Made by a program: the position numbers and the translations under genes. Below are positions 3,758-19,935 of a stretch of DNA of 64,000 bases, piece after piece. The notes beneath the pieces were generated by a model that had not been told where the DNA came from, made no database searches, and was given only the letters and a program-made list of their open reading frames with translations. This stretch comes from Dehalogenimonas sp. W (GTDB taxonomy: Bacteria > Chloroflexota > Dehalococcoidia > Dehalococcoidales > Dehalococcoidaceae): NCBI RefSeq assembly GCF_037094495.1, contig NZ_CP146612.1, positions 1,364,001 to 1,428,000 of the forward strand, read 5' to 3'. The first letter of the stretch is position 1. Every line of letters starts with the position of its first letter.

Positions 3758-3776
3758 TAGTTTAACTTAAAAATTT

Positions 3777-4073
3777 AAAAGCGTTGATCCAGACGAGTAC
3801 GTCTTTGGCGGACTTCAGAGAGCCGGGTAAGGTGTGAGCCGGTAGTTGCGCAGGGGCCGAATGGACTGGGGAGCTTCAGACCGAAAGCGTTAAGCGAGTA
3901 GGCTCTGACGGAAAGGGCGCCGTTAGCCGGCCCAGGGTATCGCCGTGCCTGAGAGTACGAGCCGTATCCGACAAATGAGATGGTTTTTACCGGTCGCAAG
4001 ACCTGGATAAACCGAACCAGGGTGGCACCGCGAGATTTGAAGCTCTCGCCCCTAGTGGGCGGGGGCTTTTTTA
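3777..4073 (+). promoter_or_regulatory. Tryptophan T-box leader
   Basis: The leader carries the T-box core AGGGTGGCACCGCG at 4019-4032, Stem I elements (AGAGAGCCGG near 3827, GTGTGAGCCGG near 3832-3842) and a GAGTAG element near 3896. The likely specifier codon is TGG at 3862-3864, in a GAA-TGG-AC context, which reads tryptophan. In the antiterminator bulge the variable base is C (TGGC), which would pair with a discriminator G, the base found in bacterial tRNA-Trp. Uncharged tRNA-Trp is therefore expected to prevent termination and switch on trpEGDCFBA. The leader directly precedes trpE. Confidence 0.9.
4040..4073 (+). terminator. T-box intrinsic terminator
   Basis: The stem arms at 4040-4051 and 4057-4068 pair with three G-U wobbles and are followed by a run of T. 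The 5' arm lies just after the T-box core, so antiterminator and terminator are mutually exclusive as in other T-box leaders. Confidence 0.85.
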
Positions 4074-7902: not shown

Positions 7903-8565
7903 ATGACGCAAATAAAGATCTGCGGCATCACGGATGTGGAAACCGCCGATTTATGCCGGCGGCTGGGGGCGGACTTCATCGGCCTGGTGTTTGCCGATTC
8001 TGCCCGGCAGATAACGCCGGAGCGGGCGATGCTGATTACCCATCACCTGCTGAATCAGCCGCGGCGGCCGAAGCTGGTGGGTGTATTTGTCAATGCCCCG
8101 GCCTATGAGGTCAACCGTATTGCCGAATACTGCCGGCTGGATCGGGTGCAGTTGTCCGGCGATGAGGATGAAGATTATTGCCGGCGGATGGCCAGGCCGG
8201 TTGTCCGGGCGCTGGGGGTGAGTCACGAGGCGACCGCTGAGGAGATTGAAGCCCGCCTGACGGCGGGGCCCCAGCAAATTCATCTGGTGGATGCGCGGGT
8301 GTCCGGGCGCTACGGCGGCTCCGGCGAGCGTTTTGACTGGGAATTGCTGGCGTACCTGAATCCGGCACTGCCGGTGATGGTGGCCGGGGGACTGAACCCG
8401 GAGAATGTGGGGACGCTCATCAGCCGCTACCGGCCGTGGGGGGTGGATGTTTCCAGCGGGGTTGAAAGCCACGGACATAAAGACCCGGCCAAAATAATGG
8501 CTTTTATCCGGGCGGTGCGGGAAGCCGATTCCGGATTGAGAGGAGTAAATAATGCTGCCAGATAA
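7903..8565 (+). CDS. trpF: Phosphoribosylanthranilate isomerase
   Basis: TrpF performs the Amadori rearrangement between TrpD and TrpC. The 220-residue protein carries the signature K-I-C-G-I-T with catalytic Cys7, the second acid in HLVDAR (about residue 126), and the phosphate-binding VAGGLNPEN and GVDVSSGVE segments. It is a separate enzyme, not the TrpC-TrpF fusion found in enterobacteria. Its last 14 bases overlap trpB. Confidence 0.96.
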
Positions 8566-9739
8566 CAGGGGCTATTTTGGGGATTACGGCGGGCGTTACG
8601 TTCCGGAGACGATTGTGCCGGCGCTGAGTGAGTTGGCGCGCGGCTATGAAGCGGTGAAAGCTGATGAAGCCTTTCACCGGGAACTGGAGCGGCTGCTGAC
8701 GGATTATGCCGGGCGGGCGACGCCGCTGTACTTTGCCGCCAACCTGACCGCCCGCTGCGGCGGGGCGAAAATCTATCTTAAGCGGGAAGACCTGGCCCAT
8801 ACCGGTTCTCATAAAATCAACAATGCCTTAGGCCAGGGACTTTTAGCCAAACGCCTGGGTAAACAGCGGATTATCGCCGAGACCGGCGCCGGGCAGCACG
8901 GAGTGGCGACCGCCGCCGTCTGCGCCATGCTGGGTCTGAAGGGCGTGGTTTATATGGGCGCGGAGGATGTTAAACGCCAGGCGCTGAATGTTTTCCGCAT
9001 GAAGCTGATGGGCACCGAGGTGGTGCCGGTGGAATCCGGGTCACGAACCCTGAAGGACGCCATCAATGAAGCCATGCGGGACTGGGTCAGCCATCCCGAT
9101 GACAGCTACTATCTTATCGGTTCGGTGGTGGGGCCGCACCCGTATCCGGTGATGGTGCGGGATTTTCAGGCGGTTATCGGGCGGGAAGCCCGGGCGCAGA
9201 TGCTGGCGGTGACCGGGGCGTTGCCGGACCAGGTAGTGGCCTGCGTCGGCGGCGGCAGCAACGCTATGGGTATATTCTATCCCTTCATTAACGATGCCGG
9301 CGTCAAACTGACCGGTGCTGAGGCCGGCGGGTCGGGACTGACTTCCGGGCACCACGCCGCGCCGCTGTCCGGCGGGCGGCCGGGGGTGCTGCACGGGGCG
9401 ATGTCTTACCTGATGCAGGACGCGCACGGTCAGGTGGCGGAAACCCATAGTATTTCCGCCGGTCTGGATTACCCGGGGGTCGGGCCGGAACACAGCTATC
9501 TGAAAGACAACCACCGCGCCGCCTATTTTGCGGTGAACGATACTGAGGCGCTGGCGGCCTTCCGGCTGCTGTCGGAGACCGAAGGCATCATGCCGGCCAT
9601 GGAATCAGCTCATGCCGTGGCCCAGGCGGCCAAAATGGCACCGACGATGAGCGCGGAGCAGACGATACTGGTTTGTCTGTCCGGGCGGGGAGATAAGGAC
9701 ATGGATATTGTAATGAACGCTCTGGGGGTGACGGCATGA
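8552..9739 (+). CDS. trpB: Tryptophan synthase beta chain
   Basis: TrpB condenses indole with serine using pyridoxal phosphate. The 395-residue chain matches the TrpB1 type that pairs with TrpA. It has [13 protein letters not shown] with the cofactor Lys88, the catalytic Glu110 in AETGAGQHG, and the phosphate-binding GGGSNAMG loop. GAGAGGAGTAA ahead of the ATG is the ribosome site. The gene ends in an ATGA overlap with trpA, consistent with equal synthesis of the alpha2beta2 complex. Confidence 0.97.
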
Positions 9740-10521
9740 ACGGAGTAACCGGTGCTTTCAGGCCGAAACATAAAACCCTGATCGGCTATCTGACGGTGGG
9801 CTATCCGGATATTGCGACCACGCTCAAGGCGGTGCCGCTGCTGGAAAAAGCCGGCTGTGACATGGTGGAACTGGGAATTCCTTTTTCCGACCCCATCGGG
9901 GATGGGCCGGTTATCCAGGCGGCCAGTTTTCAGGCGCTGGAAAACGGGGTGACGCCGGTGGATTGTATAGAACTGGCGCGGCAGTTAAGGCAGAAAGTGA
10001 ATATCCCCCTGGTATTTATGGGGTACTATAATCCTATCCTCAGCTACGGCCTTGTGGACTTTTGTCGTCAGAGCGCGACGGCCGGCGTCAACGGCCTGAT
10101 TGTGCCCGACCTCCCGCCGGACGAATCCGGGGCTTTGGACGCGGCGGCCGCGGATAACGGTCTGGACCTGATCCACCTGCTGGCGCCGACCAGTACCGCG
10201 GAGCGGATTGAGCTGGTGGCGGCTAAAAGCCGGGGCTTTATTTATCTGGTTTCGGTGGCCGGGGTCACCGGCGCCCGGGAAGGGGTGCCGGAATACCTGC
10301 CGGGTTTTGTGGCCCAGGTCAGGCGTCAGGCGTCTCAGCCGCTGGCTATCGGTTTCGGCGTGTCGTCACCGGCTCAGGCGGCGGCCATGGCCGGACTGGC
10401 CGACGGAGTGATTATCGGCAGCAAGCTAATTAAACTGATTGACGAAGATCCGTCTTTAGGGGGGCTGGAGACTTTTGTGCGGCAGGTCCGACAGGCGCTG
10501 GACGCGGCGGGTCCGGACTAA
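9736..10521 (+). CDS. trpA: Tryptophan synthase alpha chain
   Basis: TrpA cleaves indole-3-glycerol phosphate to indole, which is channelled to TrpB. The 261-residue TIM barrel has the catalytic Glu45 in [11 protein letters not shown] and Asp56 in IGDGP, with the phosphate loops near GFGVSSPAQ and IIGSKLI. It starts in a 4-base overlap with trpB and is the last gene of the operon. No clear intrinsic terminator follows. The spacer ahead of the next gene contains inverted repeats instead. Confidence 0.96.
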
Positions 10522-12951: not shown

Positions 12952-12963
12952 AGGCAGGTGGCC

Positions 12964-13359
12964 ATGAAGAACCTGGTGGAAATTTTTAAATCCTTATCCG
13001 ACAGCACCCGTTTGCGTATCCTGAATCTGCTCATTGAACGGGAATGCTGTGTCTGCGAGGTGGTGCAGGCGCTGGGTATTTCTCAGACGCGGGCTTCCCG
13101 CAATCTGTCCCAACTTTATGATGCCGGACTGCTGGAACAGCGGCGCGAGGGGTTATGGGTGATTTATTATCCGGCGCCGCAGACCCTCAACGATTATCGG
13201 GATTTGATCATCCGGGCGGTGGGTCAGGGCCTGGAAAATAATGAACAAGCCGCCGCCGACCGCCGCCGCTTGCGGGGCAGCGCCCGCTTGTGTCCGCCCG
13301 GCGACACTATTTCACCACCAACCGGCAGCACGCCTCACCCGGGCAGTGTCCGATGTTAG
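12964..13359 (+). CDS. arsR: ArsR-family metalloid-responsive repressor
   Basis: The 131-residue winged-helix protein has the ArsR core (LSDSTRLRILNLL, then ISQTRASRNLSQLYDAGLL and the wing LWVIYY). E-C-C-V-C-E (Cys28, 29 and 31) sits at the start of the recognition region where E. coli ArsR has its As(III)-binding ELCVC motif. The C-terminus is longer than usual, Pro/Gly-rich and with extra Cys residues, perhaps an added ligand site. The ATG at 12964 follows AGGCAGGTGG. It heads the resistance operon and probably represses both itself and the C39-like gene. Confidence 0.88.
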   Translation: MKNLVEIFKSLSDSTRLRILNLLIERECCVCEVVQALGISQTRASRNLSQLYDAGLLEQRREGLWVIYYPAPQTLNDYRDLIIRAVGQGLENNEQAAADRRRLRGSARLCPPGDTISPPTGSTPHPGSVRC

Positions 13360-13401: not shown

Positions 13402-13884
13402 ATGAGCAGCAACGCCCTTATCTTCATCTCCGCCGCCGCCGCTTTGTCGTTGGTCTCTTTTATCCTGGACCGCGATAAAACCATGCTGGGATTCAAGAAA
13501 GGCTGGCAGATGTTCCGCAAACTGCTGCTGCCGTTTTTGAATATCCTGATTATCGTCAGCATTGCCCTGTATTTAATTCCGCCGAGTGCGATTAATGAGT
13601 ATCTGGGCGCCGAGTCCGGTATCCTGGGCTACTTTATTGCAGCCACTGTTGGCTCCATTACGCTTATTCCGGCTTTTATTTCCTATCCTATCGCCGCGGG
13701 GCTGTTGCAGCAGGGGGCCGGATACGCGGTAGTGGCGACTTTTATGACAACGTTGATGATGGTGGGTGTGGTTACTCTGCCGCTGGAAATCCGCTATCTG
13801 GGGCGTCGCGTCGCCATTACCCGTAATGCGCTCAATTTTGTGGCCGCCGTCATTGTTGGACTGGCAGTAGGAGTCATCTTGTGA
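13402..13884 (+). CDS. Half-size permease, first of a pair
   Basis: The 160-residue protein has about five hydrophobic segments and a region (GSITLIPAFISYPIAAGLL) that resembles the conserved core of the DUF318/COG0701 permease family, to which the methylarsenite exporter ArsP belongs. At half the usual size it probably pairs with the next gene, which starts inside its stop codon (GTGA overlap). A CAAGGAG site precedes the ATG. The location directly behind arsR suggests export of an arsenical or related compound. The substrate is not shown by the sequence. Confidence 0.75.
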   Translation: MSSNALIFISAAAALSLVSFILDRDKTMLGFKKGWQMFRKLLLPFLNILIIVSIALYLIPPSAINEYLGAESGILGYFIAATVGSITLIPAFISYPIAAGLLQQGAGYAVVATFMTTLMMVGVVTLPLEIRYLGRRVAITRNALNFVAAVIVGLAVGVIL

Positions 13885-14438
13885 AACAACTGGCAAAAAA
13901 ATATCAGGCTTATGTCTGGATTGCCGCCTTTGCGGTGGCCATGATTGCCTCATTTGCGGTCGGTTTTAACCCCGGCACCACGGTTTTTACCAATTTCCGG
14001 GTTTCTTTGGTGGAAATGCTGTCTTTCCTGCCGTTTTTGTTCATTATTGTCGGCTTATTTGATGTCTGGGTGCCCAAGGAGAAGATTCAAAAGCATATCG
14101 GTCATGAGTCCGGCATCAAGGGTATCGCCCTGGTGGTCCTGCTGGCGATGCTTCAGGCCGGGCCGCTGTACGGGGCCTTTCCGATAGCCTATATCCTGTA
14201 TAAGAAAGGTATCAGCCCCCGCAATCTGTTTATTTACCTGGGAGCCTTCTCTTCTTTGAAGATTCCGATGCTGGGTATTGAAATCGGCTATCTGGGCATA
14301 GAATTTACCTTAGCCAGGACGCTGATTTCCCTGCCGCTCTTTATTGCCATCGGTTACCTGATGGAGCGCTTCCTTAAAGGCCGGCAGTTTGAAGTTTTTG
14401 ACGGCGGCAATAACGCCAGTCCTAAAGCAGGGGCCTGA
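13881..14438 (+). CDS. Half-size permease, second of a pair
   Basis: The 185-residue membrane protein has about five helices and the motif AGPLYGAFPIAYILYKKG, which resembles the second conserved core of DUF318-type permeases. The GTG start overlaps the stop of the previous gene by 4 bases, indicating coupled synthesis of a two-subunit transporter. The C-terminus is polar. A split permease pair of this kind occurs in other anaerobes (from memory). Its role in this island is inferred from position. Confidence 0.72.
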   Translation: MKQLAKKYQAYVWIAAFAVAMIASFAVGFNPGTTVFTNFRVSLVEMLSFLPFLFIIVGLFDVWVPKEKIQKHIGHESGIKGIALVVLLAMLQAGPLYGAFPIAYILYKKGISPRNLFIYLGAFSSLKIPMLGIEIGYLGIEFTLARTLISLPLFIAIGYLMERFLKGRQFEVFDGGNNASPKAGA

Positions 14439-14480: not shown

Positions 14481-15551
14481 ATGAGACAAACCGATGCCGG
14501 TTGCCCGAGCACGCTGTCCTTCCTGGACCGGTTCCTGACACTGTGGATATTTATGGCGATGGCCGCCGGTGTCGGGTTGAGCTTCTTTCTGCCGGAATTC
14601 GGCAGTTTCATCAATTCCCTGTCGGTGGGGACAACCTCAATTCCCATTGCGGTGGGTTTGATTCTGATGATGTACCCGCCGTTAGCCAAGGTGAAATACG
14701 AAGAACTGGGCAAGGTCTTCCGCAACTGGAAGGTGCTCAGCCTCTCGCTGGTGCAGAACTGGATTATCGGTCCCATTCTGATGTTTGCGCTGGCAATCAT
14801 GTTTCTGGCGGATTTTCCGGAGTATATGGTCGGCCTGATCATGATCGGGCTGGCGCGCTGTATTGCCATGGTCATTGTGTGGAACGAACTGGCCAAAGGC
14901 GATTCCGAATACGCCGCCGGGCTGGTGGCTTTCAATTCCATTTTCCAGATTTTGTTTTTCTCGGTTTACGCCTATGTTTTTATTACCGTCGCACCGCAAT
15001 GGTTCGGGCTGGGCGGCGCTATCGTGGATATCAGCATCGGGGAGATTGCCCGCAGTGTACTGATTTATCTGGGTATTCCGTTCTTTGGCGGCATGCTGAC
15101 CCGCTACATTCTGCTCAAACAAAAGGGACGGGAATGGTATGAAACGCGTTTTATCCCCCGCATCAGCCCGGTTACCCTGATTGCGCTGCTTTTTACCATT
15201 ATCGTGATGTTTTCGCTCAAGGGCGATGTTATCGTGGAACTGCCGCTGGATGTGCTGCGCATCGCGTTACCGCTGCTAATTTACTTTGTGGTGATGTTTC
15301 TGGTCAGCTTTTATATGGGACGGCGCATCGGCGCCGACTATCATCAAACGGCAGCCATATCATTTACCGCGGCGTCTAATAACTTTGAACTGGCCATTGC
15401 GGTGGCCATCGGGGTGTTCGGCATCGGTTCCGGTGTGGCGTTCGCTGCTGTTATCGGGCCGCTGGTGGAAGTCCCGGTGCTGATCAGTTTAGTCAACCTG
15501 GCGCTCTATTTCCAACGGCGATATTTTAAGCCGGCACCAGTAATAAATTAA
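14481..15551 (+). CDS. arsB: ACR3-family arsenite efflux transporter
   Basis: The 356-residue protein has about ten membrane helices and ACR3 hallmarks. These are the N-terminal [18 protein letters not shown], the essential membrane Cys127 in [16 protein letters not shown], and the C-terminal [20 protein letters not shown] with a following [11 protein letters not shown]3 exports As(OH)3 and, in some members, antimonite, driven by proton motive force. It is part of the arsR operon, 42 bases after the permease pair. The symbol arsB is used here in the broad sense. Acr3 is the stricter family name. Confidence 0.93.
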
Positions 15552-15572
15552 TTTAGAAGGAGATAAACCAAA

Positions 15573-15905
15573 ATGTCCCAACAACAAGCCAACATCATTG
15601 TCTATCCTACCCCGGCCGGGGCGTCTTGCTGAGGGCCTAAAGGACAATCGTCGGAGACGATTGACGCGATTAAAAAAGCCGTTGAGGGCGTGCTCGGGGG
15701 CAGTGCTGAAGTTATTGATATTGAAACCATTGATGCCGATGCTGCGGAATTTGCCCCGGTGGTTGAGGCCTTCAACCGTTACGGTATCTGGGCGCTGCCC
15801 GTGGTGACGCTGGACGGCAAAGTGGTTTCAGTGGGTATCACCGCGCCGGAGCAAATAGCATCTGCTGTGAAGCAGGAAATCGGGCAGACTTCCCAGGCCG
15901 GCTGA
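15573..15905 (+). CDS. Thioredoxin-fold protein read through UGA: candidate selenoprotein
   Basis: The frame starts at ATG 15573 (AAGGAG at 15557-15562) and meets TGA at 15630-15632 after Cys19. It then continues in the same frame for 91 codons to the TGA at 15903. If the first UGA encodes selenocysteine, the 110-residue product has a Cys-Sec pair (A-S-C-U-G-P) after the first strand NIIVYPTP, at the active-site position of a thioredoxin fold. It would also have the cis-Pro strand ALPVVTL near residue 75. A SECIS-like hairpin follows at the right distance. It lies between the ACR3 and ArsP-like exporter genes, suggesting a redox or metal-delivery role. It resembles what I remember as SaoT-type thioredoxin-like (seleno)proteins, unverified. 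Confidence 0.82.
15630..15663 (+). promoter_or_regulatory. UGA codon and bacterial SECIS-like hairpin
   Basis: TGA at 15630-15632 is followed by 12 bases and then a perfect 8-bp stem (15645-15652 with 15656-15663) closed by the triloop GGA. The loop begins with G and starts 20 bases after the UGA. This is within the spacing and shape expected of bacterial SECIS elements recognised by SelB. Confidence 0.8.
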
Positions 15906-15977: not shown

Positions 15978-17006
15978 ATGGATTTTATCTTAAATCTGAT
16001 TTCCGGCGGGGTTGAGTCCCTTTTTGATTACCTGTCGGCACATGTACTCACCTGCCTGGTACCGGCCTTTTTCATCGCCGGCGGTATCGCCGTGTTCATT
16101 TCGGCACCGGCGGTATTGAAATACTTCGGACCTCAGGCCAACAAATTCTTAAGCTACGGGGTGGCCTCCGTGTCCGGCAGTATACTGGCCGTCTGTTCGT
16201 GTACGGTACTACCGCTGTTTGCCGGTATCTATAAACGGGGCGGCGGTATCGGGCCGGCGACGACCTTTCTGTTCTCCGGCCCGGCCATTAATATCCTGGC
16301 GATAGTCTATTCGGCCCGGTTGCTCGGGTGGGATATCGGTCTGGCCAGAGCCATCGCGGCGGTGTCTCTGGCCATAGTTATCGGGCTGATCATGGCCTAT
16401 CTGTTCAGGCAGGGGGCGGAAAACCAGGCCAGTCCGGAACTGTTTTCCGGCGACACAGATGATGCCAGTCCCCTCTGGCAAACGCTGCTGTTTTTCGGCA
16501 GCATGACCGGGATTCTCATTTTTGCTTCAGCCGCCAACTGGCCGGTTACTATCGCACTACTGGCGGTGTTGGGCTGGGTGTTATGGCGCTTCTTCAGCCT
16601 TGATGAGATTAAACAGTGGCTCAAGGAAACCTGGTCTTTTGTAAAATTGATCTTTCCATGGTTGATCGGCGGTGTTTTTCTAGCCGGGGTTATCAAGACG
16701 ATTATCCCGGCTGATATCATCACCGGCGTGGTCGGGAGCAGCAATATCGGCTCCAATGCCCTGGCCTCGGTTTTCGGCGTCTTGATGTATTTTGCTACGC
16801 TGACGGAAGTGCCGATCATCAAGGCATTTCTGGAACTGGGCATGGATAAGGGGCCGGCGCTGGCGCTGCTGTTGGCCGGACCGGCTCTGTCGCTGCCCAG
16901 CATGCTGGTAATCCGCAAGATCATGGGCAATAAACGGGCTTTTACCTATTTCGGCCTGGTTGCAGTTTCAGCAACACTCGCCGGACTGATCTTCGGGATG
17001 ATATAA
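15978..17006 (+). CDS. ArsP-like DUF318 permease
   Basis: The 342-residue protein has about eight to ten membrane helices. The conserved C-S-C-T-V-L-P-L (residues about 74-81), followed by GGGIGPATTFLFSGPAIN, is the signature of the DUF318/COG0701 family. ArsP, its studied member, exports trivalent methylarsenicals. The second half shows FATLTEVPIIKAF and GPALALLLAGPALSLPS. An uncleaved hydrophilic loop lies at residues about 145-165. It follows the candidate selenoprotein by 72 bases. Together with the ACR3 gene it suggests protection against both inorganic and organic arsenicals or other organometals. Confidence 0.85.
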   Translation: MDFILNLISGGVESLFDYLSAHVLTCLVPAFFIAGGIAVFISAPAVLKYFGPQANKFLSYGVASVSGSILAVCSCTVLPLFAGIYKRGGGIGPATTFLFSGPAINILAIVYSARLLGWDIGLARAIAAVSLAIVIGLIMAYLFRQGAENQASPELFSGDTDDASPLWQTLLFFGSMTGILIFASAANWPVTIALLAVLGWVLWRFFSLDEIKQWLKETWSFVKLIFPWLIGGVFLAGVIKTIIPADIITGVVGSSNIGSNALASVFGVLMYFATLTEVPIIKAFLELGMDKGPALALLLAGPALSLPSMLVIRKIMGNKRAFTYFGLVAVSATLAGLIFGMI

Positions 17007-17027: not shown

Positions 17028-17273
17028 ATGAAAATTAAGATTTTAGGTACCGGTTGCCCCAAGTGCAACCAATTGGAAGCGGTGACCCGTGAGGCTTTGC
17101 AGGAACTGGGTATTGATGCCGAGGTTCAGAAAGTCAAAGATATCAACGAGATAATGGCTTATCCGGTGATGATGACGCCCGCGCTGGTAATCAATGAGAA
17201 GGTGGTGCTGTCCGGCAAGGTGCCCGGTAAATCTGAGGTGGCGGCGTTATTGCAAAAAGCGGCTGCCGCATAG
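17028..17273 (+). CDS. Small thioredoxin-family protein with CPKC active site
   Basis: The 81-residue protein is of the redox-active disulfide protein 2 type (TIGR00412-like). It has strand KIKILGTG, active-site Cys10-Pro-Lys-Cys13, helix, then the cis-Pro region MMTPALVINEKVVLSGKVP. Such proteins commonly accompany DUF318 permeases and ArsR genes. It ends the operon, 21 bases behind the permease gene. It may deliver or reduce the exported metalloid or recycle the Cys-Sec protein. Confidence 0.88.
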   Translation: MKIKILGTGCPKCNQLEAVTREALQELGIDAEVQKVKDINEIMAYPVMMTPALVINEKVVLSGKVPGKSEVAALLQKAAAA

Positions 17274-19689: not shown

Positions 19690-19935
19690 TTATGTGGCCA
19701 GCCTGGCTTCCAGCTCGGCATTGGCCGGTTCCACCAGGATGGTGCCGTCCGGGAAGACGATGGTGGGGACGCTGCGGCACCCCTTGTTGAGGCGCTCCAC
19801 TTCAGCGGCGGCGTTCTGATCCTCGGCCAGGTCTATCCACTTGTAGGCAACGCCTTTGGCCTCAAAAACCCGCTTGGCCCGGTGGCAGTCGGGGCACCAG
19901 GTGGTACCGTACATGATGATTTCTTTTTCAGACAT
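19690..19935 (-). CDS. Glutaredoxin-like protein
   Basis: The 81-residue protein has the glutaredoxin fold: strand EIIMYGTTW, active-site Cys14-Pro-Asp-Cys17, KRVFEAKGVAYKWIDLAED, then SVPTIVFPDGTILVEP with the cis-Pro after Val. It resembles mycoredoxin/NrdH-type glutaredoxins that act with thioredoxin reductase or low-molecular-weight thiols. GGAGAGGTGTTGAATG precedes the start. It is a single gene, with no ribonucleotide-reductase neighbour. Confidence 0.9.
   Translation of the reverse strand: MSEKEIIMYGTTWCPDCHRAKRVFEAKGVAYKWIDLAEDQNAAAEVERLNKGCRSVPTIVFPDGTILVEPANAELEARLAT

Follow-up and report, generated by a model that had tools for sequence, protein, structure and literature searches.

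Does the TGA that interrupts a reading frame in an arsenic-resistance operon of the window (the whole 64,000-nucleotide stretch analysed here) encode selenocysteine (Sec), and what would the product do among arsenic transporters? The first-pass annotation had proposed a selenoprotein of thioredoxin-like fold within the operon, and had named three outcomes that would speak against it: a genome lacking the Sec machinery, homologues with neither Cys nor Sec at the site, and a sequencing error at the TGA. None of these was found, and the proposal is supported by the results given below, which make the case much firmer than it was first put. The features of the operon are listed in Table 1.

Table 1. 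Features of the arsenic operon and of the predicted selenoprotein gene, in window coordinates.
Feature	Position	Strand	Basis
ArsR/SmtB-type metalloregulator	12958..13359	+	NF033788, 85.7 bits vs cut-off 55
Half-size ArsP-family permease, first half	13402..13884	+	PF03773, 34.7 bits
Half-size ArsP-family permease, second half	13881..14438	+	PF03773, 52 bits
ACR3 arsenite efflux transporter	14481..15551	+	TIGR00832, 465 bits vs cut-off 282.8
Ribosome-binding site AGGAG, ATG 10 nt further on	15558..15562	+	sequence
Predicted selenoprotein gene, 110 residues, Sec20 (MSQQQANIIVYPTPAGASC-U-GPKGQSSETI...)	15573..15905	+	sequence, homologue alignment
In-frame UGA, predicted Sec, residue 20	15630..15632	+	TGA in 9/9 congeneric homologues; TGC in other-family homologue
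Putative bacterial SECIS hairpin CAAUCGUC-GGA-GACGAUUG	15645..15663	+	synonymous freeze, sequence; absent from Cys homologue
ArsP-family permease	15978..17006	+	PF03773, 288 bits
MTH895/ArsE-family thioredoxin-like protein, ordinary CxxC	17028..17273	+	TIGR00412, 112 bits vs cut-off 62

Decoding of the internal UGA codon

The gene forms a single frame from its ATG to a terminal TGA at 15903-15905, with one internal TGA directly after Cys19; read with table 11, the frame is closed at this codon. The first-pass annotation had described the frame and the position of its internal TGA correctly, except that it gave 91 downstream codons where 90 sense codons are counted after the UGA. A search covering 60 relatives identified nine homologous genes in eight congeneric genomes, with 38-67% identity to the window protein. 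Each of these genes contains one internal TGA, and in 9 of 9 it falls at the same aligned codon. Sequencing error, one of the three outcomes named above, is ruled out as the source of the TGA because it recurs in nine genes spread over eight genomes. Among the close pairs that were compared, pN was 0.1-0.35 and pS was 0.5-0.9 on both sides of the UGA, which indicates constraint at the protein level on both parts. No start codon 3' of the UGA is common to the homologues, and none there has a ribosome site.

The UGA is followed, exactly 12 nt later, by the start of a perfect 8-bp stem closed by the loop GGA, as had been noted in the first annotation. The element is SECIS-like in being a stem-loop whose loop begins with G (GGA, with GTC in a single member), with about 20 nt between the UGA and the loop. 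Seven of the nine genes share the block GGACAATCGTCGGAGACGATTG without change; of the other two, one has a synonymous GGG in place of GGA immediately 5' of the stem, and one has the loop GTC. Across all pairs, synonymous difference per site averages 0.041 for the seven hairpin codons; the corresponding values are 0.700 for the part upstream of the UGA and 0.731 for the downstream part. Folding energy alone was rejected as evidence for the hairpin because its z-score of -1.3 is unremarkable, and five other TGAs on the plus strand of the window also have a perfect 8-bp stem 8-23 nt downstream. It is the TGA in 9 of 9 genes together with the almost complete lack of synonymous change across the hairpin codons that places the hairpin far above chance. 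No further copy was found across the window's genome beyond the element's own reverse complement, and Rfam gave no credible match over it.

A class-level profile search detected a tenth member (L093, E 4.3e-20) in G783, a genome from another family of the same class. This protein is 36% identical to the window protein and reads ...SSCCGPAVGQTEEEI..., with TGC (Cys) at the UGA codon, and the hairpin was looked for in its gene and is absent. Thus the alternation of UGA with a Cys codon that the first annotation had suggested looking for is present, with Sec in the nine congeneric homologues and Cys in G783.

The Sec machinery, which had also been put forward as a check, is all present in the window's genome, a single contig of 1,772,240 bp. 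The tRNA-Sec (72 bits) adjoins SelD, SelA and SelB; SelB is over its cut-off and SelA scores 421 bits with Pfam. In addition, selD and fdnG of this genome are themselves UGA-containing, with hairpins after the UGA. The genus of the window's genome and its congeners is inferred to be Dehalogenimonas, in part from a reductive-dehalogenase gene. The selCDAB genes have been reported throughout Dehalogenimonas, and the selenoproteins named there are SelD and formate dehydrogenase (PMC4918011, PMC13390414). Two genomes from another genus of the same family (G008, G009) have no SelD over cut-off. Judged from the sequences, there is very little doubt that the product of frame 15573-15905 is a selenoprotein; the UGA at 15630 is almost certainly decoded as Sec, and its putative SECIS is the hairpin at 15645-15663.

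Distribution and gene neighbourhoods

The comparison of these loci shows a predicted selenoprotein family that is fixed in its genus and tied to arsenic-transport operons. In the window, the stop codon of the ACR3 gene lies 21 nt ahead of the selenoprotein ATG, and the TIGR00832 and PF03773 matches bear out the original placement of the gene between ACR3 and an ArsP-like exporter. In seven genomes (G000, G001, G002, G004, G005, G006 and G007; 7 of 9 loci), ACR3 is the immediately preceding gene, and at an eighth locus (G003) the selenoprotein gene lies directly 5' of split ArsP halves, ArsP and ArsE. The first copy in G003 (1 of 9 loci) has no ars genes within the 15 kb examined. ArsP and/or ArsE are found in the same cluster in G000, G001, G005, G006, G007 and at the second G003 copy, and the G004 and G007 loci additionally contain true ArsD and ArsA. 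The Cys homologue of G783 is likewise surrounded by genes for ArsR, an ArsP permease, an ArsE-like thioredoxin, a CcdA/DsbD protein, a thioredoxin and an SBF/ACR3-like carrier. The selenoprotein gene is absent from G008, G009 and G010, and no relatives were found among genome contigs, viral contigs and plasmids in pattern-based scans, which were narrow. Provisionally, the family is confined to one genus and one Cys relative, with only narrow pattern scans sampling outside Chloroflexota.

Several other features were observed in and around these loci. The split half-size ArsP pair at 13402-14438 is found again at the ars loci in most of the congeners, which suggests a heterodimeric permease. One G007 gene (L055, 6039-6950, minus strand) encodes ArsD fused behind a DUF2703 domain and adjoins ArsA. 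A glycosyltransferase and a PIG-L/LmbE deacetylase, like mycothiol-type MshA/MshB, adjoin the selenoprotein locus in two species (L056 in G003, L057 in G002), with a possible link to a low-molecular-weight thiol. In the arsenic cluster of G783, a small protein (L097, G783:C102, 2343-2693, minus strand) that reads MKVTIVLDGGLKSCCTTYPPESV... has a similarly placed vicinal Cys pair and no Pfam match, adjoins a DGC-domain protein, and may be another distant relative of the family. In the window itself, 19690-19935 encodes a mycoredoxin/UXX-star-like glutaredoxin with an ordinary CPDC motif, near but under several glutaredoxin model cut-offs, and a T-box leader over the Rfam gathering score (3775-4056) lies 5' of a region with trp genes (7903-10521).

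Relation to ArsD and the proposed role

An AlphaFold2 model built from the nine-row alignment (pLDDT 85, pTM 0.78) has the topology beta-alpha-beta-alpha-beta-beta-alpha. The top Foldseek matches were the ArsD structures 3mwh, 3ktb and 3kgk (E 1.5e-3, probability 1.0, TM about 0.54, a moderate value for a common fold), and the DUF1462 protein 1xg8 was close behind. VIA-align gave 1xg8 a Z of 7.4 over 97 residues and ArsD a Z of 6.9, with many thioredoxin folds at Z 6-7.4; thus, the fold alone does not assign a function. DUF1462/YuzD (PF07315) has the same fold and a weak profile match, but the best-scoring member of the selenoprotein family reaches 18.9 bits, under the cut-off of 25, and DUF1462 is not known here as arsenic-linked or Sec-containing. 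MTH895/ArsE (TIGR00412) also shares the fold, and the operon itself ends with a gene for a true member, but it has CxxC, and the window selenoprotein reaches 14.3 bits against a cut-off of 62.

The likeness to ArsD (PF06953/NF033727), which is also the best fold match, extends to the sequence. Both are small thioredoxin-fold proteins encoded in ars operons, with beta1 leading into a long, Cys-rich loop that ends in C/U-GP, a cis-Pro LP motif and an LDG turn. On the PF06953 profile the Cys homologue reaches 26.0 bits, one bit short of the cut-off, which speaks for the affinity. The ten-row family profile aligned with ArsD in hhalign at 94.8% (E 4.8e-8), and the next matches of the family profile search include genuine ArsD proteins (best E 1.3e-6). 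Five of the nine Sec members have a weak ArsD profile match, which partly reflects the shared thioredoxin fold. HMMER and MAFFT alignments both place Sec on ArsD Cys18, the residue before GP. Together with Cys12 and Cys13, Cys18 hands As(III) over from ArsD to ArsA (PMC12607644). However, the family differs from ArsD in having Sec at the Cys18 equivalent, and the vicinal Cys12-Cys13 pair is absent from the window protein and most members, G004 and G007 having one upstream Cys. The PF06953 cut-off of 27 bits is not reached by the window protein (13.6), the best Sec member (20.0) or the Cys homologue (26.0). Neither ArsD nor a tandem ArsA is encoded in the window's genome, whose sole ArsA/Get3-type match is far away and not in tandem, and some congeners also have true ArsD. 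Because these defining features of ArsD were tested and failed, the family is not filed as ArsD. The ArsD genes of G007 and G011 had likewise been marked as containing in-frame TGAs; inspection suggests that these are the normal stops at the gene ends, and they were set aside.

From the sequences and the model, the product is probably a Sec-using, ArsD-like metalloid carrier that would deliver As(III) or organoarsenicals either to ACR3 or to ArsP. It would be a cytoplasmic thioredoxin-fold protein related to the metallochaperone ArsD, in which Sec20 and a neighbouring Cys (Cys19, or in two homologues a Cys 4 residues before Sec) would bind As(III) or methylarsenite. The trivalent arsenical would then be passed to the exporters encoded by flanking genes (to ACR3 in the case of As(III), to the ArsP-type permeases, or to both), and the ArsE-like thioredoxin (17028) may hold the Cys/Sec site in its reduced state. 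As to why Sec would be preferred, at neutral pH a selenolate is in its ionised form and soft ligands exchange on it rapidly, and a strict anaerobe would lose little to re-oxidation. The lack of ArsD and of a tandem ArsA in the window's genome argues that the receiver is a permease and not ArsA, although the missing ArsA, the usual partner of ArsD, also counts against a carrier. We give an even chance to the more specific reading, an ArsD-superfamily Sec metallochaperone that is independent of ArsA and whose Sec serves as the metalloid ligand in hand-over to ACR3/ArsP and not as a redox catalyst. The protein is no simple replacement of ArsD, since G004 and G007 hold a true ArsD-ArsA pair as well as the selenoprotein gene.

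With ArsD-ArsA kept in these two genomes and, of the Cys-Sec pair, only Sec invariant across members (the adjacent Cys is Gly in two), a selenol redox role stays the main rival. In that case the protein would not be a carrier but a thioredoxin- or glutaredoxin-like selenol oxidoreductase, and its task in the operon would be to reduce metalloid conjugates or protein disulfides. Its thioredoxin-like fold, the vicinal thiol-selenol CU pair in seven of nine members, a PF13192 (Thioredoxin_3) score of 24.5 bits, just below the cut-off of 24.8, and the CcdA/DsbD and thioredoxin genes close to the G007 and G783 copies are consistent with such an enzyme, and most known selenoproteins are redox enzymes of thioredoxin-like fold (PMC13188914). 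However, there is no CxxC or CxxU, the position of the Cys partner shifts between CU and, in two homologues, CxxxU, and Sec20 lies in the long loop about 7 residues ahead of helix 1, not at the helix N-terminus. Thus, of the Cys-Sec pair first assigned to a thioredoxin active site, the adjacent Cys19-Sec20 stands, but its location at the classical CxxC position does not. The nearest family in both sequence and fold is also a metalloid carrier, and we regard the oxidoreductase as possible but doubtful.

The first-pass annotation had also suggested, as a point it could not verify, the SaoT/SaoE proteins of the SAO (Sec-assisted organometal) system, which would handle organomercury or similar compounds. 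SaoT is a small thioredoxin-fold selenoprotein proposed for metal detoxification, and the neighbouring ArsP-like permease (15978..17006) weakly matches SaoE at 107.6 bits. However, this is far under the SaoE (NF040736) cut-off of 325, and SO_0444, at 122.9 bits, is also under its cut-off. The SaoT model NF040730 matched neither the window selenoprotein nor anything in nine genomes, the window's own and five congeners included, no other Sao gene was seen in the operon, and the SaoT motif is UxxC (PMC13188914), not CU. The suggestion was therefore dropped as very improbable.

The weakest alternative, that the UGA is a real stop (a pseudogene, or a separate upstream peptide and downstream ORF) beside a hairpin that is an unrelated regulatory element, agrees with the table 11 reading and the unexceptional folding energy but is barely credible given the TGA shared by all nine genes, purifying selection on both sides, no common later start with a ribosome site, Cys in the homologue and the full Sec machinery.

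Novelty and significance

The family appears to be an undescribed selenoprotein family. No model in NCBIfam (June 2026) or Pfam reaches its cut-off on the window selenoprotein, and ArsD, DUF1462 and metallochaperone families are all missing from a 2026 inventory of selenoproteins in prokaryotes (PMC13188914). The thioredoxin-like selenoproteins Sec.1 and Sec.2 of that inventory share a PF13192-like fold and a Sec near Cys, but they are set apart by their listed motifs, CxU and UxC, from the CU or CxxxU found here (PMC13188914).

The gene provides a third confidently predicted selenoprotein for genomes in which only SelD and formate dehydrogenase were named (PMC4918011, PMC13390414); genes of this kind are easily overlooked by ordinary annotation because of the UGA. 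The host is a dechlorinating soil and groundwater bacterium, and such bacteria serve in the clean-up of chlorinated solvents. The predicted family ties selenium directly to arsenic efflux. It also offers a clean Sec/Cys pair in which the SECIS hairpin is present or absent to match, so that Sec as a metal(loid) ligand is testable on a soluble protein of 110 residues.
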